In this document: positions 22,025 through 34,826 of the stretch, piece by piece
Layout: the number at the start of each line of letters is the position of its first letter
Position numbering within the stretch: position 1 is the stretch's first letter
Assembly (NCBI GenBank): GCA_001275005.1
Contig: JWZX01003250.1
Span: 1 to 35,113, forward strand
Direction of reading: 5' to 3'
DNA length: 35,113 bases
Source of the DNA: Chrysochromulina tobinii
Lineage: Eukaryota; Haptophyta; Prymnesiales; Chrysochromulinaceae
The notes under the pieces: model-generated
Databases searched by the model: none
What the model saw: only the letters and a program-made list of their open reading frames with translations
What the model was told of the DNA's origin: nothing
Program-made: the position numbers and the translations under genes

Positions 22025-24733
22025 TCAGCCGACGACGCCACGCACCTGGAGCTTGGGCAACGGCTCGAGTCGATGGGCCGGCGCTCGCGACGGCGCTCGC
22101 GCCACGTCGTCTTCCACAGACGCTGCCACAGTGGGCGCGACTCGCCCCAAGGTGGACGGCGTATGGATGGCCGAGACGGGCGCCGAGACGGGCGCGTACC
22201 CATGCCCGAAGCCTAAACCGAAGCCCTTCGCGCCAAATCCCAGGCCCGTGCCCGGGACAGCGCCAAATCCCAGGCCCGTGCCCGGCGCTGTCGCCGCCAT
22301 CGCCGCCGACGCCGGCGTCGCCGCCAGCGTCGTCGCGGGCGGCGCCTTCGGATGGCAGTGGCCGTCCGCGTCAAGGTACGCGCAGTCCTTGGCTGGTAGC
22401 CGGTAGTGGTCGTGCGTATCGTTGACGACCTTCTCCAGCCAGGCCGCCTCGTACACAGGCGCCGTCTTGGTGCAGCCGCAGAGCAAGTCGGCGGGCTCTT
22501 CGGCGGCCGTGCTCCCATCTTGTAAGGTGACCATCAGCTTCATCCAGAGCGCCGTCCAGCGCGCCGTGGCCTCGGCGGTAGCCTCGACGGCGAGCGCGCT
22601 GAGCACCGCCGCAACGCCCGCCACGTCGCCGGAGGCCCACTTAGCCGTTGCGTTCGCCTCGGCCGCTGCCACTAGAGGGGCGAGGTGCGCCTCGAGCTGC
22701 TCGCGTGCGCGTGTCACGAGCGGCCCCGCGCGGTTGTAGTCCTGGTACACGAGGCGAGCTACCGCCGAGTTGACCCAGAACGCACTGTGTGGCACGAGAA
22801 AGGCCATCGGCCATTGCTCATCGAAGGCGATCGGTGCTCATCCATGGCAATCAGTCGCAATCAGTCGCAATCAGGTGCTCATCCATGGCAATCAGTGACA
22901 AGAACACACGCACCTGTCCCACGAGAACGCCATCATCGAACCAGGCAGGCCATTGGCCACACGGCACGCGAGGCGTGCCGAGCAGTTGGCATCGTCGTAC
23001 GAGCGATGGACGGCGGACGCGCCGCCGTACAGAGGCACCTATTCGGGGCATTCATGTCCTCATGTCAAAGGGACTGCCAATCAATCTCAACACATGCCAA
23101 TCCATATCATGCATACCAATCAACACCAATTGCCAGTCAGGTCCAATTAAATCCAATCAAGTCCTAATCCAGTCCAATCAAGTCCAATCAAATCCAATCA
23201 AATCCAATCCAGTCCTAATCCAGTCCAATTAGGTCCAATCAAGTCCTAATCCAGTCCAATCAAGTCCAATCAAATCCAATCCAGTCCAATCCAGTCCTAA
23301 TCTAGTCCAATTAGGTCCAATCAGGTCCTATTTGACGCACCTTGGGCGCCCACGCGTGGTCATCAGCGCCCCACCAAAGCAGCGCTCGCAACGGCGCGGG
23401 CGTCGCGCGCCCTCGCACGGAGGCCACAAAATGCCACGCCGTGAACTGCGTACCCACGATGCGCTCATTGACGAAGCTCTGGTTCTTGAGCTGCCACGAG
23501 AGGCCGTTGTACCGGTAGGGCGTGTGCTCCGGCCCGGCGGTCACGTCAAGCGCCGGATCGAGCCAGCTGCCCTCGTACTTGGATGAGAGGGCTGCATGCA
23601 CGTCCGCCCGCGTGAGCCCGCGTTTTGGGCGTACCTGTGGGGAACCGGCGCCGTGGTGGGCACTTGCATGCTGGGCGCTCTGCCGGTCGTACACGTACCC
23701 AGAGCGGCATCCGTCGCGTCAGATTGAAGCCCTGGGCGTACCTGTGGGGAGAGGGTGGGGAGAGGGCGCCGTGGTGGGCGCTTGCATGCTGGCATCCGTC
23801 GCGTCAGATTGAAGCCCTGGGCGGCTCACGGCAGGTAATACTCCGCATCGAAGTCGGTTGGCTCCGCCAGCTGCTGGAAGATGTACCAGACGCGAGCCTC
23901 GCAGAAGCGCGCGCCCGTGGGTGTGACCGGATCGTACCTGCAATCCATGGATCAGGGATGTCATCAGGGATGTCATCAGACCGTCAGAGATCTATTGTAG
24001 GTAAACCGCGGCAATCCGCGTACACGTCCGAGAAGGAGAAGGCGGGATCCGTCGGCGACCCCTTCCACAAGCCACGCGCGATCGCGAAGGTGGTCACGTC
24101 GGGCGCCATCATGCACGTGGACGCGTCATCGCAGGGCAGGAAGGCGGAGATGCGAGCCTGGTTCGCGTTGGCGGTGAAGTAGCCCTCGGGCACACGGAGG
24201 GCGACGTAGAGGATCCCCTTGCCGTAGTCACCCTTGCCCAGAAGCTCCATGTACCAGCACTCATCCCCGTCGGAGATCGAGAAGCCCTCCATAGTGGAGT
24301 GGTAGCCGTACGCCTCGCACAGCTCCGCCATGACCGTGATCGCCTCGCGCGCCGTGCGAGCGCGCTGGAGCGTCGTCATGATCAAGCTTCCGTAGTCGAG
24401 AATGGTGCCCTTGCCCGCCGCGAGGCTCCCGATGCCTCCGTGCGTCGTCTCGGCGATGACAACGCCATGTTCGTTGCCATGCGACATCACGTTGTACGTG
24501 TGGTTGGGCTGCGGGATGACGCCGTTCAGAGTCCCTCTTTCAAAGTCCCAGATCTCGCGGACGTCGCCGGGCGAGTGGTCTTGTGCGGGAAAGTGCGTGA
24601 CAAGGCCGTGGCGCTTGGCCGAGTCATCGTTGTCGCCGACGAGTGCCGTGCCGTCGGCGGACGCGCCTCGCGTTACGAGGATGTTCGAGCAGGCGCGAAG
24701 GCACACAGGAAGGAGGAGGAGACGAAGACGCAT
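22025..24733 (-). CDS. Peptidase family C69 (secreted dipeptidase, Ntn-hydrolase), six exons
   Basis: Exons in sense order are 24733-24024, 23937-23830, 23741-23699, 23634-23341, 23038-22914 and 22784-22025. All junctions are GT-AG and in phase and give 679 residues. The start MRLRLLLLPVCLRA is a signal peptide; cleavage exposes Cys15 (CSNILV), which in C69 enzymes is the N-terminal nucleophile. Family landmarks are DGTALVGDNDD, SHGNEHGVVIAETTHGG, SDGDECWYMELLGKG, the YDPVTPTGARFCEARVW block rebuilt across intron 1, YAQGFNLTRRMPLW (exon 3), YVNERI-like FVNERI, and YGGASAVHRSYDDA. The last exon adds an unusual Gly/Phe- and Ala-rich tail (GTGLGFG repeats) beyond the usual family end. The enzyme should hydrolyse dipeptides in the secretory pathway, lysosome-like compartment or outside the cell. 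Confidence 0.92.
22212..22297. repeat. Direct repeat encoding GTGLGFGA units
   Basis: A 30-33-nt unit containing CCAAATCCCAGGCCCGTGCC occurs twice, with a related shorter copy beside it. On the minus strand it encodes the GTGLGFG repeats in the C-terminal tail of the C69 protein. Confidence 0.75.
22785..22913 (-). other. C69 intron 5, with copies of flanking exon ends
   Basis: The 129-nt intron runs from donor GTGCGTG to acceptor CACACAG. It has several CGACTGATTGC repeats and a duplicated ATTGCCATGGATGAGCACC block. Its 3' end (22785-22807) resembles the end of exon 5, sharing ATGGCNTT and CTCGTG. Confidence 0.8.
23039..23340 (-). repeat. C69 intron 4: decamer satellite
   Basis: The 302-nt intron is dominated (about 23140-23335) by some twenty degenerate 10-11-nt units, in sense GGACTTGATT, GGACCTAATT or GGACTGGATTA. 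Each unit carries a CTNAT or TTGAT branch-point-like core. Confidence 0.9.
23635..23829 (-). repeat. Tandem duplication spanning C69 introns 2 and 3 and exon 3
   Basis: Intron 2 (23742-23829), the 43-nt exon 3 (23699-23741) and intron 3 (23635-23698) form an imperfect tandem duplication. A 32-nt stretch of exon 3 (23706-23737) is identical to 23791-23822, directly inside intron 2. The intron bodies share a 27-nt block with one mismatch and similar CCCCACAG acceptors. Confidence 0.92.
23938..24023 (-). other. C69 intron 1
   Basis: An 86-nt intron with donor GTACGC and acceptor GATTGCAG contains tandem CTGATGACATCC units. The donor GTACG matches the first bases of exon 2. Confidence 0.85.
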
Positions 24734-24931
24734 TTCAGATCGAGTGTGCTGTGAACGATTCGTCTGTGAACATATGAAAGAATTAACTCGCGACACAAGT
24801 GCTCCCTCTCAATGGACGTGCGCGCGCGCGTCTGTCAAGCCGTTCTGGCGAGGCCGTGCCGTCTCTGGACGCACCACTGACGAACCACTGACGAGGCTGT
24901 CTGACCTACTGTCGTCCTGTCGTCCTGTCGA

Positions 24932-26624
24932 TCATGAGCCGAAGCGGCTCAAAGGATCATGGCTGGCCTCCTCCTCGTTGGCCGGCCCCGCGCGCTGCTT
25001 GATGCGCTTCTGGCGCTCCTCGAGCTCCTCCTGCCTCTTGAGCCGCTTCTCGTCCATGATGTTCGACTGCTTCTTCGCGAGCTTGCGCGAGATCTTCGAT
25101 CGGCCGCGCGTCTTCTTCTTCGACTTCTTCTGGCTCTGGATCTCGGCGAGTCGCTCCTCTCGCGCGGCCTGGAACTCCTTCTGGCGCTCCGTCTGCTGCC
25201 GATCGACCGTGTTCAGCCTCGTCGGGTCCATTTGAATCGTCGCCGGGGGCAGCTTGTCGAGCAGGCTATGCACTTCGCCCTCACGCCGCTGCTTGCGGTT
25301 CTCGTAAGGATTCGCCTCGAAGGAGTCAAAGTTAGGCTCGCCCGCGCCCGGGGCGAGCATCGAGCTGAAGCCCCTCGAGTGTCCTATGCCCAGTACATCT
25401 TCATACGGGCAGAAGCGCTCCGTCGCCGCCGCACAGCCGGGCAAAAGGTGGGTCAGATATGGCCCGTTCGTGCGCTTGGAGAGCCCATCCTTGAAAACCT
25501 GCACGAAAGGGCCGTGGTGATGAGGAAGGCAATCAGCATGCACTCAGAGGCCATCATCGTAATCAGCATGCACTCAGCATGCACTCAGCATGCAATCAGC
25601 ATGCAATCAGCATGCAATCAGCATGCACACTCACCTGCACGGAGGGGCCGTGGACGGCGGCGAGCATCCCGCGATCTGAAATGTCCAGATCGCTCACTGG
25701 GCGAGGCGTGTAGTACTCATGCAGCGGCCGGTACGTCCGAATATCCCACAGCTTGAGCGCGCCGTCGCGCCCCGCCGTCGCCATGTACCGGCCACTCCGG
25801 TCGATTGCGAGCGCACTCACGCCGCCCTTGTGGCAGAGCATCTTGACCGCCGGCTCGCTCAGATTGGGCGTCCACATGGTCACGACCCCGTTGCGGTGCC
25901 CGAGCGCCACGAGAGCGTTCCACGGGTTCAGCCGCATGCAGTCGCACACTCCCAGACGGGTCGGCAAGTCCGCAACGTGCGCGCCCGTCGACACATCCAT
26001 GTACCGTAACCGCCCGGCCGATCCGATCGTCGTGAGAAGCCAATGGTAGCGCAGGAAGCCGAGGCGATGGACCTCGGGTCCATGGTCGCGGAGGCAGTGC
26101 AGCTCGGTCCCCATCCCATCGTAGATGTACAAGTTCTTATGCTGCGCCGCAGCGAACATGGTGTGGTCTCTCAAGAAGCAGACGTCTCGCACCGTCTCCC
26201 TCACATGCAGCTCACGTGTGATCTTGCACCCCTCCCAGTCGACGAGCGCGATGTGGCCCTTGTGCCCGCCCAGCAGCAGGTGGCGCCCATTTGCGGTGTA
26301 CGTCGCACGGTACGGCCCAAAGCGATCGAGCTTCATGTCGTATGCCTTTCTCTGCGTTTGCTGATCCGCGGCTTGCGCAATGGCACGCTGCGAGATCCGC
26401 GCCGTGCGCTCCATCTCTCCTTCGGTCTCAAGCATGCCCGGCTCAGATGGAAGCAGCAGCTCCGATTGCGCCGCGCTTCGCGCAGCTTGTGCCATCTTCT
26501 TCTCGTCGCGCTTGATTGCCAACTTTAGCCGATGCTTCACCACGCCCTTGGACTTGTTGGCCTGCCCACGCTCATACTTCTTGACGGCAGAAGGTTCGGT
26601 GTTGCCGCGGTTGCGCTTTCCCAT
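24932..26624 (-). CDS. UTP7: U3 snoRNP protein UTP7 / WDR46 (BING4), two exons
   Basis: Exon 1 is 26624-25635 (330 codons) and exon 2 is 25498-24932 (188 codons); the GT-AG junction in phase 0 rebuilds SVQ-VFKDGL, as in UTP7. The protein is a core factor of the nucleolar small-subunit processome needed for 18S rRNA maturation. The N-terminus is basic (KKYERGQANKSKGVVKHRLK). Residues about 95-330 form the WD-repeat propeller, with KAYDMKLDRFGPYRATYTANGR typical of the family and a clear MATAGRDGALKLWDIR blade. Exon 2 is the BING4 C-terminal domain (GPYLTHLLPG, CPYEDVLGIGHSRGFSSML, GAGEPNFDSFEANPYENRKQRRE) followed by a Lys-rich nucleolar tail. The length of 518 is normal. It lies 198 bp downstream of the C69 start on the same strand order. 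Confidence 0.95.
25499..25634 (-). repeat. UTP7 intron with 11-nt repeats and an exon-end copy
   Basis: The 136-nt intron has donor GTGAGT and acceptor CGTGCAG. It contains about seven GCATGCTGATT/GCATGCTGAGT units and a CTGATTGCCTTCCTCATCA cassette. Its last 18 nt match the last 18 nt of exon 1 at 16 positions. Confidence 0.92.
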
Positions 26625-26925
26625 TTCAAGAGTAGCACTATCGGAGTGCCTACGTTAGGACGCTCACCGGCTCGTCCGTCGCAAAACGCTGTGGCGACGT
26701 CTCCGTCCGAGCCCCGAAGCGCCGTCTCGGGCGTTCAGTTTCCGCAAAGTCTTTTTTTGAATTGACGTGCGACTCACCAGCGTCACAGGAAAGTACACAC
26801 CGAGCAGAGATAGTGCAGCCTCGCTCAGAGTTCCCCGGGGTGTAGCCCGGGGTCGGGTGTTTTGACAGCCTCGCCCGCGTCGCCCCGAGCCGTGCCCGAG
26901 CCGACGCGGACACGTGGCGAATCTC
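26625..26925. other. Spacer between helicase 3' end and UTP7 start
   Basis: This is the presumed UTP7 promoter and helicase 3' UTR. A small palindromic CCCCGGGGTGTAGCCCGGGG element lies at about 26833-26852. No gene is seen. Confidence 0.45.
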
Positions 26926-28991
26926 CTAATCGTCAGAATCAGATGCCAGAAAGTTCATGGGGTCCAAATCAGGCTCGTTCCAGCCTTCTCCCACAGGCCC
27001 TCGTGACGATGGGCGAGGCGTGGTTTGCTTCGAGGCCATACGAGCTGCCCGAAAGGATTCCCCATCAGCCCGGGACGACGCCCGAACCGATTCCCCATCA
27101 GCAGCCCGCGCCGTGGCGCGACCGCGGCCAGCCCCGCGACCTCGAGCGGGCGCCGTCCCGGGCGTCGTCCTCGTCGCGCCGCCGCGTCGAAGCGAGCGTC
27201 CGCCGGCGCTCGTGGAGCCGCCTCCATCCTTGGCACCGCCGCCGCCGCCGCGCCGCGCGCCCGTGGTGATCTCGGCGATCTCGCCGCCCTTCGATCATCA
27301 TCTGGTGCAACGGCACGCCCAACGCTTTAGCAAGTTTCGTCACGACGAATGCCTTATTCTGCGGCACGACCGAGAGCACGGTGCCCGGCGCGCCCGCGCG
27401 CCCGCACCGGCCGGCGCGGTGGACGTAGTGGCTCACGTCGGTCGGAAGTTCGAGGTTGACGACGTGGGTGAGTCCAGGCAGGTCGAGCCCTCGAGCCCCC
27501 ATCTCGGTCGTCACAGCCATCCGACACCGGCCGTCGAGGAGCTTCCGCATCACCTCCACTCGCTCCTCACGCTCTTGGTCGCCGTAGAGAGGCTCGGCGG
27601 GGATCCCATACGAATCCCACAGCTTCTCACACACGATCTTGACGCGGTGCGGCGAGTTGACGAATAGCAAGCACTTTGGGGCCGGCTGGCTGTGGTACAG
27701 CGACTTCATCGTCTCGAGCACCTGATGAGGGAGGCTCTCAGACTCAATCATTGGCACTCAGACTCAATCAGAGGCCATCAGAGGCAATCCTCGTCCGAAG
27801 CCTGATGAGGAAGGCAATCAGAGGCAATCAGAGGCAATCATTGGCACTCAGACTCAATCATAGGCAATCAGAGGCAATCATTGGCACCCGGACTCAATCA
27901 GAGGCCATCGGAGGCAATCCTCGTCCGAAACCTGATGAAGGAGGCAATCATCTGCACTCAGAGGCCATCATCGTCTCGAGCACACCTTGCGCTCCTCGAC
28001 GACGCACAGGCCGTGGGTGATGAGGAAGGCAATCAGCATGCACGCAGCATGTAATCAGCATGCACTCAGCACACACCTTGCGCTCCTCGACGACGCACAG
28101 GCCGTGGGTGATACCCTCGGGCAGCTGGGCCGCAGCGTCACTTGCGACGCCCGCGGCCGGGAGCAGACGTACGAGCATCGGCTTGCGCAGCAGCTGCGTG
28201 GCCGCGCGCCGCACCGCCGCCGTGTCCGCCGTCGCCGACGCAAAGATGAGTTGCAGAGGACGTCCGTCTTGCGCGGACTCGATCAGGCGAAGGGTAGGAT
28301 CCAGATGCGGAGGGCGGAGGGCGTCGTCGACCTCGTCGATCACGATGTGGCGCACGCGCTGAAGCTTGAGCTTCTGCCACTCGAAGGCGAGGTCATTCAC
28401 GCGGCCGGGCGTGCCCACGATCAGCTGGGGCCGATTCTTCTTGATCTTCTCGAGCTGGTTGTTGGGGTTGGCGCCTCCGACCACAGCCGCCACGCCCAGC
28501 CCGGTGCCCGCGAGCGCGAGCTCGGCCACGCGCGCAATCTGAAAGGCGAGCTCGCGCGACTGGCACAGCACAAGCGCCTGCGGCTCGCGGCTCGACGCGT
28601 CGAGCAACTCAAACAGCGGCAGCAAGAAGGCGAGCGTCTTGCCTGAGCCCGTCCACGCGTGGATGATGGCATCGCGGCCGGACGAGATCGGCCCAAAGGT
28701 GGCGCGCTGCAGCGCGTTGGGCGCCGTGATGTTGGCCGCGGCCAGATTGGCAGCCACGCCCGGCACCGACACGCCGAGCGCCTCGAAGCTCATCGCGCCC
28801 TCCGTTCGAGCCGCGTCTGTCCGCACCTCGAGCCGCTCCATGTCGCCAGAAGGCGCGTCCTCTGCGAGCGGTGCGACGGCCCGGGGAGAAGCGTGCCGTG
28901 CAGCCTGCGCGTGCGACGGCGTTTGTCCAAGGCGTAGGGCAGAGGCGGACGCGACAAGTAAGACCAGCGAGTGGACGAAGAGCATTGTCAT
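26926..28991 (-). CDS. DEAD-box-family RNA helicase (DEVD variant) with N-terminal presequence, two exons
   Basis: Exon 1 is 28991-28077 (305 codons) and exon 2 starts at 27721, joined in phase 0 over a 355-nt intron. The start MTMLFVHSLVLLVASASALR is a signal peptide, followed by an Ala/Arg/Ser-rich stretch, which suggests plastid import in an alga with complex plastids. Motifs: I AWTGSGKT (112-119), Ia SRELAFQ, TPGR (194-197), II DEVD (219-222) instead of DEAD, III SAT (252-254). In exon 2: LLFVNSP, TTEMGARGLDLP (V) and HRAGRCGRAG (VI). The annotated frame ends at 27098, but a one-base shift near 27287 opens a more natural tail (GGEIAEITTG, ending FLASDSDD) to TAG at 26926. It is probably an organellar RNA or ribosome-assembly helicase. 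Confidence 0.92.
27722..28076 (-). repeat. Helicase intron with embedded copy of the spliced exon junction
   Basis: The 355-nt intron has donor GTGTGT and acceptor CTCATCAG. At 27981-28021 it contains 41 bases identical to 28072-28112, the end of exon 1 plus the donor. Next to this, 27968-27983 has 16 bases identical to the start of exon 2. The rest is tandem CTGATTGCCT-type repeats with several internal CCTTCCTCATCAG cassettes. Confidence 0.95.
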
Positions 28992-29327
28992 CAACTCCAC
29001 GTTCGAGAGTCGTTCGAGCCATGTTTCCGAGCTCGCATCTCGAGAAATCCAACGAGACTCAATGCCGTTAAAGTTATCTCGGCGTTCACGTCCGTAACCA
29101 CGAGCGGACGATTCTTTCCTGCGCGGCCGACAGTGCCGCTGGCCGGGCCGCTTTGCAAAGCGAGAGTGCGTCCACGACCATCGATCGACTCGGAGAAGAC
29201 GGCGAGCCTCCACGCCGAGAGGAGCGAGTGCCGCCGCAGCGTCCAACTGCCAGCGACGCCGCACGCTCCAGCCACTGAACCCCAGCACGATGCAGCCGCG
29301 CGCCGCACTCTCCATGGCATAGGCACG
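28992..29327. promoter_or_regulatory. Divergent promoter region between helicase and coiled-coil gene
   Basis: 336 bp separate the head-to-head start codons at 28991 (minus) and 29328 (plus), so both promoters should lie here. No TATA-like or other core element is recognised. Confidence 0.5.
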
Positions 29328-31219
29328 ATGCTCAGCGACTCGCTCCGCGCTTCGTCGACGTGGCGCTGGCGGCCTGAGAACACAGGCGAAGCCAGCGCGA
29401 CCGTGCCTCTCGCGTGGCTCCAGTCCATCGAGGCGGGCGTGCGCCTGCTCCAGTCCGCCGCAGCACGTGAGAACGAGCTCCAAGTGCAGCTCGCCCAACT
29501 GCGCTTGCGCGCGAACGCGGCGGACGAGGAGCTTGCGCGACGGCAGGCCCAGCTGCACGCGCTCGAGGACGAGCTGGGCTTCGCGGAGGCGCGCGAGGCG
29601 TCCCTGTGTGAACGGCTGCTGCGGGAGGCCGAGGGCAGCGGCATGCGCGTGGGCGCCCATCGCGGCGCTCCCCCTCTCGAGGTGCTGATTCTTCACGAGG
29701 AGGCGGGCGCCGAGGCGGCGGCCGACGAGGACGACCGTGAGTACGACGAGGAGCGCGAGGTGGTACTGGAGGATCACGACGATGAGGAAGAGGCCGACAC
29801 GGACGAGGGAGCGGAGGCAGCGAGCAGCGGAGGCGTCGAGTAGGCGCCTTGCGAGCCTTGCGAGCCTGACGGCGCCTGATTGCCTCGGATGGTCCCTTGA
29901 TCGCGCCTCTGATTGCCTTCCTCATCAGGTACGAGCCCTACGAGCCTTTCTCTGCCGTCTCGCCCGTATCGGTCGGGGGGGATGAAGAGGCGACCATGGC
30001 TTACAAGGCAATCGAGCCGAGCGGGCACGCTGTTCATGGGGGCGGCGACGCGAGCGGCGGCGGCGGCCGCTGCGCCGGAGGAGGAGGAGGAGGAGGAGGC
30101 AGAGGAGGAGGCGGCGGCGCAGGAGGTGGCGGCGGCGACGGCGGCGGCGGAGGGGCCGCCGCAGCGGCGGCGCGATGGCAGCACGGTGGATGGCTGCACG
30201 GCCTAGCGCGCTTCACCGGCCTTGCTGAGGAGGCAAGCAGCGGCAGCGGACGAGGCCATCTGACGCAGGCGCAGCAGCCGACGACGTCGCAGCTCGCCTC
30301 ACCCGGCGCTGCGGGCACGCGCGGGCCAGGGCGCCATGGTGGGCGCATGCCGGAGGGTCCTCCCTGGACGCCCGGTACGACGCCTGGTACGCGGGTGACG
30401 GCGTACGTCCTCGTGCCCGACCTGAGCGCCGCCGAGGCTGGTTCGCTCTGCACGGAGCTGCGTCGCGCTGACCATTCCCTGAGCCTTCGACAACCAGAGG
30501 GAGCGTGGGAGGGCCGTCTGCTCGTCGAGGAGGTGCGATCTCTATTGATCTCCCTTGATTGCCTCTGATGGCGCTCCACCGCGAGGAGGAGCTCGTCGAG
30601 GAGGTGCGATCTCCCTGGACGATCTCGCTGAATGGTTTCTGATTTGCCTCTCTGACTGCCACTCTGGTTGCCTCCACACTCTGGTTGCCTCCCCCTCCTG
30701 ATTGCCTCCCCACTCTGGTTGCCTCCCACTCCGGATTGCCTCCCTCCGCAGGCGACTGAGGCGCAGCTGCGGCGGCTCGTTGAGCATGGGCGCGTCGCCG
30801 GGATCGAGACGCGCCGTCTTGAGCACCATGGGGTGAGCACGGCTACGCCCGTGCCAATGAGACGGCTCGACGCCGCCGCCCACGACGACGCTCATGACGA
30901 CGGGCTGTCCACCAGCCCAAGCCGACCAACAAGACGAAGCCCGCTCGAGGTAGTGTTGCGCAGCGCGTTTGGCTCGTCGGGCGCCGTTTCGGGCGCTGGC
31001 GTCGTGTCGGGCGAGCGCTCCTGCTCCCCGTTCACGGCCGTATTGGCGGCCGACGCACCCGTAGACGCGGCGCACGAGGAGGCGCAGGTGCAGCAGCTGA
31101 GCCAGCAGCGAGCGGTCGCTGCGGAGGCGGCGTACGCCTCTGGACAAGGTGCCGCGATGGCGCTCTTCGGCATGCTCAGAGGTGCGGGGGTGGGCGTACA
31201 AGTGGCGGGAAGCGAGTAG
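29328..31219 (+). CDS. Coiled-coil hypothetical protein, three exons
   Basis: Exons 29328-29839, 29929-30532 and 30752-31219 join in phase to 527 residues. The first ATG of the frame is used. Exon 1 encodes a Leu/Ala/Glu coiled coil (ARENELQVQLAQLRLRANA) ending in an acidic tail. The junction GA-G joins it to YEPYEPFSAVSPVSVGGDEE. Exon 2 has a Gly-rich run (nt 30040-30170), then a Pro/Gly/Thr region and RVTAYVLVPDLSAAEAGSL, with LLVEE at its end. Exon 3 continues ATEAQLRRLVEHGRVAGIE and ends VGVQVAGSE. No family is recognised. The segment spanning the exon 2-3 junction looks like a small alpha/beta domain. An 18-nt in-frame mini-exon inside intron 2 is possible. Confidence 0.65.
29840..29928 (+). 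other. Intron 1 of the coiled-coil gene, with exon-like 5' end
   Basis: An 89-nt intron with donor GTAGGC and acceptor TGATTGCCTTCCTCATCAG. Its first 22 nt match the first 22 nt of exon 2 at 17 positions. Confidence 0.75.
30533..30751 (+). repeat. Intron 2 of the coiled-coil gene, with exon-end copy and repeats
   Basis: A 219-nt intron. The 22 bases at 30521-30542 (exon 2 end plus donor) recur exactly at 30592-30613. The 3' half is tandem CTCTGGTTGCCTCC units ending in the acceptor CCCTCCGCAG. Confidence 0.85.
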
Positions 31220-31572
31220 ACGAGGTAGAATGGACCAGATCCGGCGGGCTTACGGCTTAGAGATCAGCATTGGAGATCAGCTCAAACACATATTAATAGT
31301 TTTAAGCGAAATAAGCCATGACCCACGCAGGGCGATTTTCTACGTTTTCACTGAATACCGCTCGCTGGCTCGCGCAGAACCGCAGTCGCAGCGCGCGCCG
31401 AGCACATCACACATGAGATCCAAGAGCAAAAGGCTTGGAATTATTCGCGCATCATCACCGATCCCGGCAAAATACTGCGTCAAAAAGTGCGTGTAATTCC
31501 TAATTAGCGAGAGATGTGCATCTCACGCACCCGCGCCGTTGCCTACAGGGCATAACTCACCTCACTCGCACG
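31220..31572. other. Spacer between two plus-strand genes
   Basis: This is the relatively AT-rich upstream region of the Cys-cluster gene. No gene or repeat is seen. Confidence 0.4.
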
Positions 31573-32346
31573 ATGGTCAAGGTCACGATGGAGCAGAGGA
31601 AGGCGGCAATTGCAGAGAAGGCGAAGGCGGATAAGGCGGCAAAGTATAAGGCCTTTGCAGACGCAAGCAAGGAGTGCGAGGCAATTCTCAACCATCCAGC
31701 TACCATGGCGGACACTCAAGCGTACATTGAGATGCAGAAGAAAATAGAGAAGGAATCGGCAAGAGCCGAAGAGTTCGAGCTTTTCAAGCTGCGTCTGCAG
31801 AGTGGCGTCTACCCGTACGCCGAGTGGGAGACTGAAGAGGGAAATTATGTGGGTGCGTGCTGCGTAGAGAAGTGGCCATTCTCCGTTCTTCCGTTCTTCA
31901 GCGATCTGCAGTGCTGCAAGCCGGAGTACGTTTGCCACATGAAGCCCTGCTGCTCGTGCAAGTGCAACTGCTGCAAAGATTGCTGCAAGTGCGAGGGCCC
32001 CAGCTGCTACAAGCCCTACGGTTGTGAGCTCCTCGGCCTGCATGTCCACTGCGCAAAGTATCCAGCGTGCCTGTCGGTGAGTGCTGCATCGCAGCACTTT
32101 CGCTCTCCATGATCATGCACCGAGCCCATACGAGCCCAGCGCTGTCCCTGACAAGCACGCTCAGTCAGAGCGCCTTGCCCCTATCCGGATAGCTCAGTAC
32201 TCAGAAATTCCCCTGCTTACATGTACTGATTTGCACCTTGGTGTTGTTCACAGTGCTGCTGCACGGCCGAGGTGATGGTAGACAAGGTCATCTATAAGGC
32301 GACCAACATGAACGTACCAACATCTGCTAAAATTGATCGTGAGTAA
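31573..32346 (+). CDS. Cys-cluster hypothetical protein, two exons
   Basis: Exon 1 (31573-32076, 168 codons) starts at an ATG with favourable ACG context (ACGATGG) and exon 2 (32254-32346) follows after a 177-nt intron with donor GTGAGT and acceptor TTGTTCACAG, phase 0, giving 198 residues. The N-terminal half is a Lys/Ala/Glu helix (MEQRKAAIAEKAKADKAAKYKAF). The C-terminal half is extremely Cys-rich: CCVEKW, LQCCKPEYVC, KPCCSCKCNCCKDCCKC, and a CCCTAEVMVDKV block rebuilt by splicing at CLS-CCC. The pattern suggests metal binding or multiple palmitoylation at a membrane. No family name is known to me. GTGAGTAAAG at the stop codon is itself donor-like, so a further exon cannot be excluded. Confidence 0.72.
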
Positions 32347-32452
32347 AGGACCAAGTTCATGCCAGCCATTCACCGTGCTCGTTCTCGCGGCGAACTTGCT
32401 CTGGTTGGAAGGCTGCCCCCCTCCCCGGCGATGGTGTGTACCATACCGTAAA

Positions 32453-32950
32453 GCCTGGGGTGCGGGTGGGGGGTGTCCTGGGGTCGATGGGCGGGCCGCT
32501 GTCGAATAGCTGTCGAAGAGCATGTGAGGCCGACGGGCGGACCGCGGGGGATATCTGCCATGAAACCTGGTGCGTGCGGGTGGGGGGGATGTCCTGGGGT
32601 CGATGGGCGGGCCGCTGTCGAAGAGCCTGTGTATGCCGACGGGCGGACGTCGGGGATCTACCATACAACAGCTGGAATGATGACGGGTACATGAACATGT
32701 ATGCGTCAGAGAGGGGGCTGAGTGTGGCGCTTCCCAGCAGCCAGCACCGTGGGGCCTGCAACCTGGTGTTCGCCGATGGGGTGTGTTAGGGGTGTGTCCT
32801 CGGGTGATGCGATTGCGAAGAGCCTGTGAGGCCGACGGGCGAACGGCGGGGATCTACCATACACCAGCTGGAATGATGACGGGTACATGAACATGTATGC
32901 GTCAGAGAGCAGAGGCTGAGTGTGGCGCTTCCCAGCACCGTGGGGCCTGT
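32453..32950. repeat. Three degenerate tandem copies of a 110-200-bp unit
   Basis: Shared blocks include GTCCTGGGGTCGATGGGCGG (32473 and 32591), GGCCGACGGGCG (three times), and a block of more than 60 bp with CAGCTGGAATGATGACGGGT (32669 and 32867) continuing through ATGAACATGTATGCGTCAGA to GAGTGTGGCGCTTCCCAGCA. The minus strand is open through the units, but this follows from the repeat. Confidence 0.88.
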
Positions 32951-33284
32951 GAGCGGTGACGGTCCGTCGTCCGATGAGCGGCCAGGCGAGAGTGCCAGAG
33001 TCGAGCTTCCTGTTCCTCGGTTTACGGTTACTACACTTTCGCACACACCTTTCTCTCGCTCAGAATAACCACAGCGCGGCTGCGTATGCTGTCGCTACGG
33101 CTTTACCTTGACAGATGACACCCAGCTCCCAGCATTATTTGTGCGTCCGGCAAGTAAGCGCAAAGCGGTCGACCAGCCACGCAATGGCCGACAGATAGAT
33201 GGATGACTGGATGCACCATCGGAGCCCAGGCTGCAGGCTCAAAGTGCTCTCAAAGTGCACTCAAAGTGCTCTCAAAGTCGACTC
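32951..33284. other. Convergent intergenic region
   Basis: The region lies between the Cys-cluster gene and the cyclic-nucleotide-binding gene. A short CAAAGTGCTCT-type tandem repeat (about 33239-33291) runs up to the stop codon of the minus gene. Otherwise nothing is recognised. Confidence 0.45.
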
Positions 33285-34758
33285 TCAAAGCGCCCCGCCC
33301 GGCGCCGTCTTGACGGCCGCAATCACCTGGCGCTTGTACTCGCCCCAGTTGTGCTGCTTCTGGATGCTGCGCTGCACCTTGTCGTTGTCTAGGTAGAACT
33401 TCTCGGCGTACTGTCGCATCAGCTCTTGCGTCCTCTCGTCGAAATGATGGTAGAAGTCATACCTGACGAGTGAGGCCATCAGAGGCCATCAGAGGCCATC
33501 AGAGGCCATCAGAGGCAATCTGGCTTCTTCTCGTCGAAGTGAGGGTAGAAGTCAGACGCTCCAGTCCCTGGTCCTGGACGAGGAGCTCTGATGAGGGAGG
33601 CACTCAGTCGCAATCAGTACCTGGACAGGACGAGCAGCTCGACGCGCGAGGTGGTCACCACCGAAGCCGAGTGAGGTGCCTTTTTAGTGGCTCGCTTCAT
33701 GGCCTCGAGGAGCGCCAACTCTCCAAAATATTGGGGCGCGCGCAGCTGGGCGATCTCGAGCAGCGGCCGCTCGGGCAGCCGGAAGTGTCCTCCGCCAGGC
33801 GAGCCAGCAGCGCTCGACTCGGCGCTTGAGCCAGCCTTTGAAAGCCTTGGGGAACGAGACTGGGACAGGAACGCGTCTGACCTTGGCGTCGTCACGAACG
33901 GCGCTTCGGTGCCCGTCCTGCGACTCTCATCAAGGGCCGAGAAGGTATTGAACTCAGATACACATGAGTAGATCTCCGCTAGATCTCCGCGGCACTCCGA
34001 GGCACTCCAAGGCACTCCGAGGCGATCACCTGTGGCACTCAGCGAGGGCCGAGAAGCCAGATCGCATCTCGTAGGGCGTGTGCACGAGCTGGCTCGCGAG
34101 CTCCTCAGTGAGGCCCAGCCGCATGAGGATACGGCACGTGCCCGAGAGGATGAAGTACCTGATGAGGAAGGCCATCAGAGGTGCACTCAGAGGTGCACTC
34201 AGAGGTGCACTCAGAGGTCGCAGGTGCAACCAACGATCATCAGAGGTGCACTCAGAGATGCATGCAGTGAGAGCTCCACTCAGAGGCATCTGTGGGCACG
34301 CGTTACATATTCTCCGCAATCTCGCCCTGCCGGATGACCGTTGTGTACTTCTCGAAACTGAGGAGGAGCGCAGTCAGTCAGAGTGGCGCACTCAGATGGC
34401 ACTCAGATGGCACTCAGCATCCTCCTCGTGTATACCGCCGCTCGGTGAAGAGCTTGGCGAGGCTGAGCAGCTCGTCGTCGCTATGGTCTTCGAAGAGGAA
34501 CACCTGCTTGAGGAAGGCGACGCGCTGCAATCCCTTCTCATGGTGGTGCTTGGCGCACGCCTTGTCATATTGATCCTTCTCGATGAGGAGCAGCTGGGTG
34601 GGCACCTGATGAGGAAGGTCATCCGTGGTGTGATCATCATGCAATCAAGTGGGCACCTGATCAGGTAGGTCATCCGAGAGGGCCATCAGAACCTATTCAG
34701 GAAGGCCTCCAGCCGCTGCCCAGGAACTGCCCAGGCGCAGCAAGCTGATCCTTCTGGT

Positions 34759-34826
<68 letters not shown>

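Follow-up and report, generated by a model that had tools for sequence, protein, structure and literature searches.

Several introns in the window analysed here, the 35,113-nt contig JWZX01003250.1 of the haptophyte Chrysochromulina tobinii (assembly GCA_001275005.1), carry second copies of their own flanking exon sequences beside short sequence modules that recur at unrelated sites throughout the genome. We think it probable that these introns arose as introner-like insertions with unusually long and variable target duplications, in which a module would enter the DNA at offset cuts and fill-in of the ends would duplicate the neighbouring exon. The window is one of the 2,253 contigs of the 53.15-Mb assembly that was searched; the C. 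tobin genome is described as 59 Mb in size, with 63.4% GC and a mean of one intron per gene (PMC4580454; statements on this and the other papers cited refer to portions of their text). Gene models built by hand place 14 introns in six genes (22785-34436).

Besides its own 60-nt exon flanks, each of the 14 introns was aligned with those of the others to give a shuffled control, from which pairs within the peptidase gene G1 were excluded. Matches to the own flanks score at least 12 in 8/14 introns versus 18/162 shuffled pairs, at least 14 in 6/14 versus 5/162, and at least 18 in 3/14 versus 0/162. The introns that score at least 14, numbered by gene as in Table 1, are G3.1, G1.2, G6.4, G6.3, G2.1 and G4.1. 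Weaker matches are found in G4.2 and G1.5, that of G4.2 (13/13, within a 23-nt identical direct repeat) being equalled or beaten by one control pair, and an own-flank copy above control is absent from the remaining six (G1.1, G1.3, G1.4, G5.1, G6.1 and G6.2). The first-pass annotation of this DNA, which had reported such copies in most introns, is therefore upheld as to the copies themselves, which exceed the shuffled pairs at all three cuts; its "most" holds at the looser cut of 12 and fails at the stricter cut of 14. Copies of one flank form the majority, and both flanks are copied in spliced order in G3.1 and G6.4. The strongest case is the helicase intron G3.1, in which the end of the upstream exon recurs at 36/36 positions and is followed, two bases on, by the start of the downstream exon at 16/16. 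The gradation from such identical copies to decayed ones (30/44 in G4.1) agrees with the earlier proposal that exon duplication accompanied intron birth and that the copies differ in age.

The modules belong to two families. Family A consists of tandem 10-11-bp units such as TGATTGCCTC, TGATGACCTC and TAATGACCTC, typically ending in (C)TCATCAG or CTCATCAG; CTGAT or CTAAT within the units is presumably a branch-point-like motif. Family B is centred on CTCAC in a core of 24 nt, GCATGCAAG..CACGGCGC, after which there is often a pyrimidine tract and CACAG. Genome-wide, TGATTGCCTYCCTCATCAGG of family A occurs 792 times exactly and 3,425 times with up to 2 mismatches, and GCATGCAAGYGCYCACCACGGCGCC of family B 402 times exactly and 2,283 times with up to 3, the reversed-pattern control giving 0 for each. 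Among 906 exact occurrences of TGATTGCCTYCCTCATCAG (19-mers ending in CAG), the next base is G in 792 and the next two are GT in 607. As in introners, then, sequence is common to many introns at unrelated sites. The long-form family-B copies at loci L118, L140 and L141 have a common 5' extension and differing flank copies. The "filler" at L118, the extra sequence ahead of the B core, turns up with one mismatch next to such a core at three further sites (L140, L141 and, with a changed core, L139) and is for that reason a longer form of the module; the idea that filler is exon carried from a source intron was rejected for L118, the one filler searched. A search of viral contigs gave no match to family A and one to family B, which occupies the final 60 bases of a phage-like IMG/VR contig of 4.6 kb (L142:4495-4554). 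That contig encodes primase-like and terminase-like proteins; the module there is most likely a chimeric end, possibly a real transfer, and is not used as evidence.

Copies of the own flank accompany the modules in other parts of the genome as well, at loci that were taken around the first listed module hits together with a few others and are thus a non-random sample. For family A, the 45-nt stretch that follows CAG was compared with as much as 450 nt of upstream sequence in the 92 copies for which this amounted to at least 250 nt; 46/92 score at least 20 against their own flank versus 29/442 shuffled pairs, about 8 of the 46 matches being, by eye, between one module unit and another. With module-like flanks removed, 31/73 versus 6/429 reach a score of 20, and 15/73 versus 0/429 a score of 30. 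Own-flank matches are found for 47/67 family-B copies (37/50 by locus) versus 9/326 shuffled pairs, and in 5 of these 47 the repeat itself takes in module sequence. The phenomenon thus occurs in unrelated genes and across the genome, as had been supposed, and the shuffled exon-intron pairs, which the first-pass annotation had named as a possible refutation, leave its observation standing in the window and in both families.

The exon copy usually opens exactly at the predicted splice junction and gives one splice site, the module giving the other; among family-A matches scoring at least 18, 34/39 begin at the first base after CAG. The commoner polarity has an exon copy that opens the intron with GT and a module that brings AG, and the opposite polarity (window 25634-25499; L012, L051, L069 and L096) has a module that begins with GT and a copy of the upstream exon end that closes the intron with AG. 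Direct repeats spaced at 50-160 nt form 318 pairs (636 pair-strands); a compatible AG/GT marks the start of 86 and the end of 32, where about 23 each would be expected from repeat interiors, in a sample enriched for module loci.

Reading frames and conserved domains support the predicted junctions. The flanking coding frames agree after removal of the intron in 34 of the 44 cases, among 83, that could be scored by virtue of a clear frame and a GT or GC donor (chance 1/3; family A 20/24, family B 14/20). On the G1 product a single continuous Peptidase_C69 match, over profile positions 1-398 of 402, spans all five junctions, and the junctions of G6.1 and G6.2, which follow residues 55 and 72, fall inside the best cNMP_binding stretch (53-92). 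A domain spans the junction in 4/6 single-intron fragments (DSPc, Cation_ATPase, Gelsolin and Asparaginase_C), the domain search being without a match in the other 2/6; two further domains lie beside their junctions, not across them, since Helicase_C starts at 305 where the junction follows 303, and BING4CT at 54 where it follows 41. In an alignment of ten G1 homologues, chosen among the 120 listed, 9/10 are gap-free at all five junctions, and P0180 has gaps at G1.2 and G1.3. The G2.1 junction is, by eye, consistent with P0002-P0005. Near the C-terminus of the helicase the frame of the window shifts (~27290-27300, minus strand; MMIEG, then another frame), and P0241, P0276-P0281 and P0283 stay in one frame there (MMIKGGEIAE...); this might be an error of assembly in the window or a real frameshift.

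It seems very improbable that the copies reflect assembly artefacts or chance similarity in GC-rich DNA. The assembly is fragmented and has minisatellite content, as such an explanation would have it. The shuffled controls, the restoration of frame and the graded decay speak against it, however, as does a repeat-like read-through of the same intron in protein P0001, which comes from another data set.

The events that we envisage would begin with the entry of a module of either family into exonic DNA at two offset cuts on opposite strands, whereupon fill-in of the ends would leave the module flanked on both sides by a duplicate of some 14-52 nt of exon. Where the AG (or GT) of a module end meets an exon copy with GT at its start (or AG at its end), splicing could take out the module together with exactly one copy, and the protein would remain unchanged. 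Later insertions at the same junction would produce nested copies in "spliced order", and the 10-bp arrays might subsequently expand or shrink. The first-pass annotation had attributed the copies to tandem duplication of an exonic segment containing AG-GT, which could create an intron in one step. We agree that exon was duplicated, but a family-A or family-B module sits between the copies, and as a rule the duplicated exon supplies a single splice site. The presence of both flanks in spliced order, although real in G3.1 and G6.4, is best read as two nested insertions. A plain tandem duplication of this kind (the Rogers model), inside which a repeat family grew later, thus strikes us as improbable. 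Such a model accommodates the fact that copies begin at AG|GT or G|GT, with G before the donor in 43/54 family-A and 22/29 family-B introns, and a cellular route is on record in which Pol alpha-primase fill-in at 3' overhangs yields short tandem duplications, inserted modules and introns going unmentioned in the available part of that report (PMC8355091). It fits poorly with the same modules lying between both copies in many unrelated genes, with one splice site being module-derived, and with copies that are identical over 28-48 nt and already hold a module between them (L126, L137 and L132). Direct repeats around a repeated insert point to insertion of an element with target-site duplication and not to simple tandem duplication.

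The lengths of copies and inserts might reflect a further constraint. An ungapped flank copy accompanies 74 of 97 family-B copies (at most 3 mismatches), and 32 of the 74 satisfy an automatic AG|GT rule; in these 32 the duplication measures 14-44 nt, and the intron measures 63-92 nt in 31 of them. The duplication at L112 is 52 nt, so that the overall range is about 14-52 nt, outside the 3-9 bp reported for introners. In family B, copy length decreases with insert length (rho -0.62, p 1.6e-4), their sum is tighter than in permuted data (P 0.0016), and longer modules (60 nt; L140, L141) carry short copies. A minimum spliceable length would yield such a negative correlation, which we would tentatively attribute to selection for spliceable length. 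The lengths of 73 introns of both families with GT or GC donors are uneven modulo 3, with remainder 2 in 33, 0 in 22 and 1 in 18.

Some modules and their copies apparently lie in exons. At 11 such candidate loci, picked by eye among the 42 copies that fail the automatic intron rule and including two (L010 and L087) that may be introns, the copy distance is divisible by 3 in 8/11 (P 0.009), a hint, suggestive only, that insertion is not tied to splicing. The B core lies in apparent coding repeats with spacing in multiples of three at L125, L129, L135, L106, L049, L122 and L016; several of these read MQVLTTAP or HASAHHGA, and L122 and L125 have a better coding frame on the opposite strand. A wider scheme, which we put forward tentatively, is one of ongoing intron-making, in which a minimal module (branch point, pyrimidine tract and AG) is copied into widely offset cuts, the spliceosome filters for insert plus exon copy near 80 nt, the missing splice site is taken from the exon copy, and inserts that lack a splice site survive only as in-frame exon repeats. 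If this were true, intron birth would be one outcome of a general small-insertion process.

How the module would be copied into the break can be pictured in two ways, to which we give similar weight: short RNAs might be reverse transcribed, or module DNA might be captured in break repair. By the first, short transcripts or excised intron 3' ends would be copied into nicked exons by target-primed reverse transcription in the manner of short interspersed nuclear elements (SINEs), which predicts that the 3' end is fixed, that the 5' end varies and that duplications are long and of variable length. The duplication length is variable, and heterogeneous 5' ends occur in inserts with a constant 3' end (CTCATCAG or CACAG). 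As to the inverted ends common in transposons, the longest terminal inverted match is at most 3 nt in seven of eight inserts compared and 5 nt in the eighth. The search for an autonomous partner covered RVT_1 only and gave 26 matches in the genome, 22 of them over the curated cut-off, which show only that a reverse transcriptase may be available. Selection for a 3' splice site, however, would leave the same constant 3' end, through which the family-A copies were in fact found; the 3' ends vary where the module brings the 5' splice site, the ends of the module are mixed and not fixed, since some B copies end at GGCGC(C), and the better coding score of L122 and L125 on the other strand is a further difficulty, as is the fact that we know of no module transcript. 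As one means of supplying the insertion step, this route is possible yet rather doubtful.

By the second way, repair of offset breaks would capture module DNA without any dedicated enzyme, as proposed for the neointrons of Daphnia, and would supply the same step. Nested events, variable duplication length and module pieces with differing ends would all follow readily. The Daphnia introns likewise involve repeated bouts of insertion, but their repeats are 4-12 bp (33 cases) and the portion of the report consulted describes no recurrent module (PMC4202315), whereas two families recur thousands of times here; this route, too, we regard as somewhat unlikely.

There are signs that the insertions are recent, since 22/32 of the rule-passing family-B copies are at least 95% identical, and that they differ among close relatives. 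The G3 helicase is 99% identical over 89% to P0241 (EukProt, labelled jgi/Chrpa1 'Chrysochromulina_OHIO', a label that we take to mean C. parva), which reads through the G3.1 junction. Without the 55-nt insert E1 and the 36-nt copy, the window would read ...VEERKVCSRR-stop, and as it stands it reads ...VEERKVCAECML. P0242 (100% identity over 68% of the helicase) leaves the exon with ...VEERKVCSR and then ends, and P0244 (97% over 67%) leaves it with ...VEERKVCARSDDGLRVQMIASLIRCSR, similar to what follows the second exon copy. On this protein evidence, P0242 and P0244 read as if they came from genes lacking E1 and the 36-nt copy, a sign of presence/absence.

Several observations weigh against insertion as we have described it. 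P0242 is one codon off the predicted empty site, and the unoccupied allele is deduced from protein read-through, not from DNA. Of the 74 family-B copies with a flank copy, 42 fail the automatic AG|GT rule; by eye, many of these are introns with a shifted alignment and some are not introns. Own-flank matches at the cut used are absent from half or more of the family-A copies and from 30% of the family-B copies, and the B copies that stop at GGCGC(C) lack the pyrimidine tract and AG. Decay of one copy end, booked as insert, would produce the same negative correlation between copy and insert length. The window is also richer in modules than the genome average, since its 8 A and 2 B copies exceed the 2.3 and 1.5 that the genome mean would predict; in the 78 kb of eight regions selected through kinase hits there are 4 A and 0 B copies, versus 5.0 and 3.3 expected.

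Table 1. Genes and intron features of the window (copies as matching positions)
Feature	Positions	Strand	Remarks
G1, peptidase C69		-	
G2, WDR46/Utp7		-	
G3, DEAD helicase		-	
G6, cyclic-nucleotide-binding		-	
G4 and G5		+	
G1.5	22785..22913	-	weak upstream-exon match, 16/20, score 12, control maximum 11
G1.3	23635..23698	-	family-B module; own-flank copy not above control
G1.2, peptidase C69 intron	23742..23829	-	copy of downstream exon start (23791-23823, 33/33) and family-B module with 3' splice site
G2.1, WDR46 intron	25499..25634	-	family-A array, then 19-nt copy of upstream exon end (25499-25517) giving 3' splice site, 17/19
G3.1, composite DEAD-box helicase intron	27722..28076	-	E1, copied exon end, copied exon start, more family-A units
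G3.1, copy of first 16 nt of downstream exon (27706-27721)	27968..27983	-	
G3.1, second identical copy of 36-nt upstream exon end	27986..28021	-	first copy 28077-28112
E1, 55-nt family-A insert	28022..28076	-	brings 5' splice site of G3.1
G4.1	29840..29928	+	decayed copy of downstream exon start, family-A 3' end; 30/44, score 14, control maximum 11
G4.2	30533..30751	+	second copy of upstream exon end plus intron start (30520-30542 = 30591-30613, 23/23)
G6.4	33463..33620	-	both flanks present in spliced order as decayed copies, lying between family-A units, 25/33 and 33/39
G6.3	33918..34029	-	3' end of intron copies upstream exon end, 22/27
G6.2	34159..34306	-	family-A units and CTCATCAG end; own-flank copy not above control

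A 302-nt intron of the window (23340-23039) is rich in 10-bp units of the TTGATTGGAC type, with exon copies not above control. Direct repeats of ~18-79 nt, spaced at 105-302 bases, lie downstream of G5 outside the modelled exons (32468-32931), and a tract of 22 CAG triplets, which read CTG on the strand of the gene, adjoins G6 at 34760-34825. A simple scan for direct repeats in the kinase-hit regions and the window gave sparse results, rich in coding minisatellites. Scans of the window for Rfam families (gathering threshold) and transfer RNAs gave no matches.

Among known systems, these introns come closest to introners (Gozashti et al. 2022, PMC9860276), which that study reports for the TARA assembly of a Chrysochromulina sp. 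Those are likewise dispersed intron-making families that leave messenger RNA length mostly unchanged and recruit a splice site from the target-site duplication, so that such recruitment is already known, at 3-9 bp (4 bp in the Chrysochromulina example and 8 bp in Aureococcus); here the duplications are ~14-52 nt, variable and often a third to half of the intron. In the screen of that report, similarity had to start no further than ten intronic (or five exonic) bases from each boundary (PMC9860276). The introns with an exon copy have one locus-specific end, so that the similarity among them does not extend to both splice sites, and those that open with a long unique exon copy would be expected to fail that screen. 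A short target-site duplication is not present in every known introner family. The AGGT tandem genomic duplication (Hellsten 2011, via PMC4974935) resembles the present case in that the duplicated exon carries AG|GT and the peptide is unchanged, but in that case the intron is itself duplicated exon, which provides both splice sites; the present introns have a repeated module between the copies and are not wholly duplicated exon. Direct repeats at intron borders have also been read as insertion scars, at 4-30 bp (mean 11.4) in 213 introns of many taxa, module families not being named in the part of that report available (Rogers and Bendich 2025, PMC11782384). No report of introners with variable duplications of 14-52 nt was found, as judged by titles and abstract starts, among the papers listed in searches of open-licence literature.

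The origin of introns is still debated because fresh examples are few. Here a single genome offers thousands of module copies, copies of graded age and a sign of presence/absence between close strains; extrapolation from the fractions in the copies examined suggests that both exon copies should be recognizable in hundreds of introns. Since each of these introns consists in part of exon sequence unique to its locus, a screen that depends on similarity at the two ends of the intron would miss them, and introns composed of an exon copy and a module may be under-counted elsewhere.

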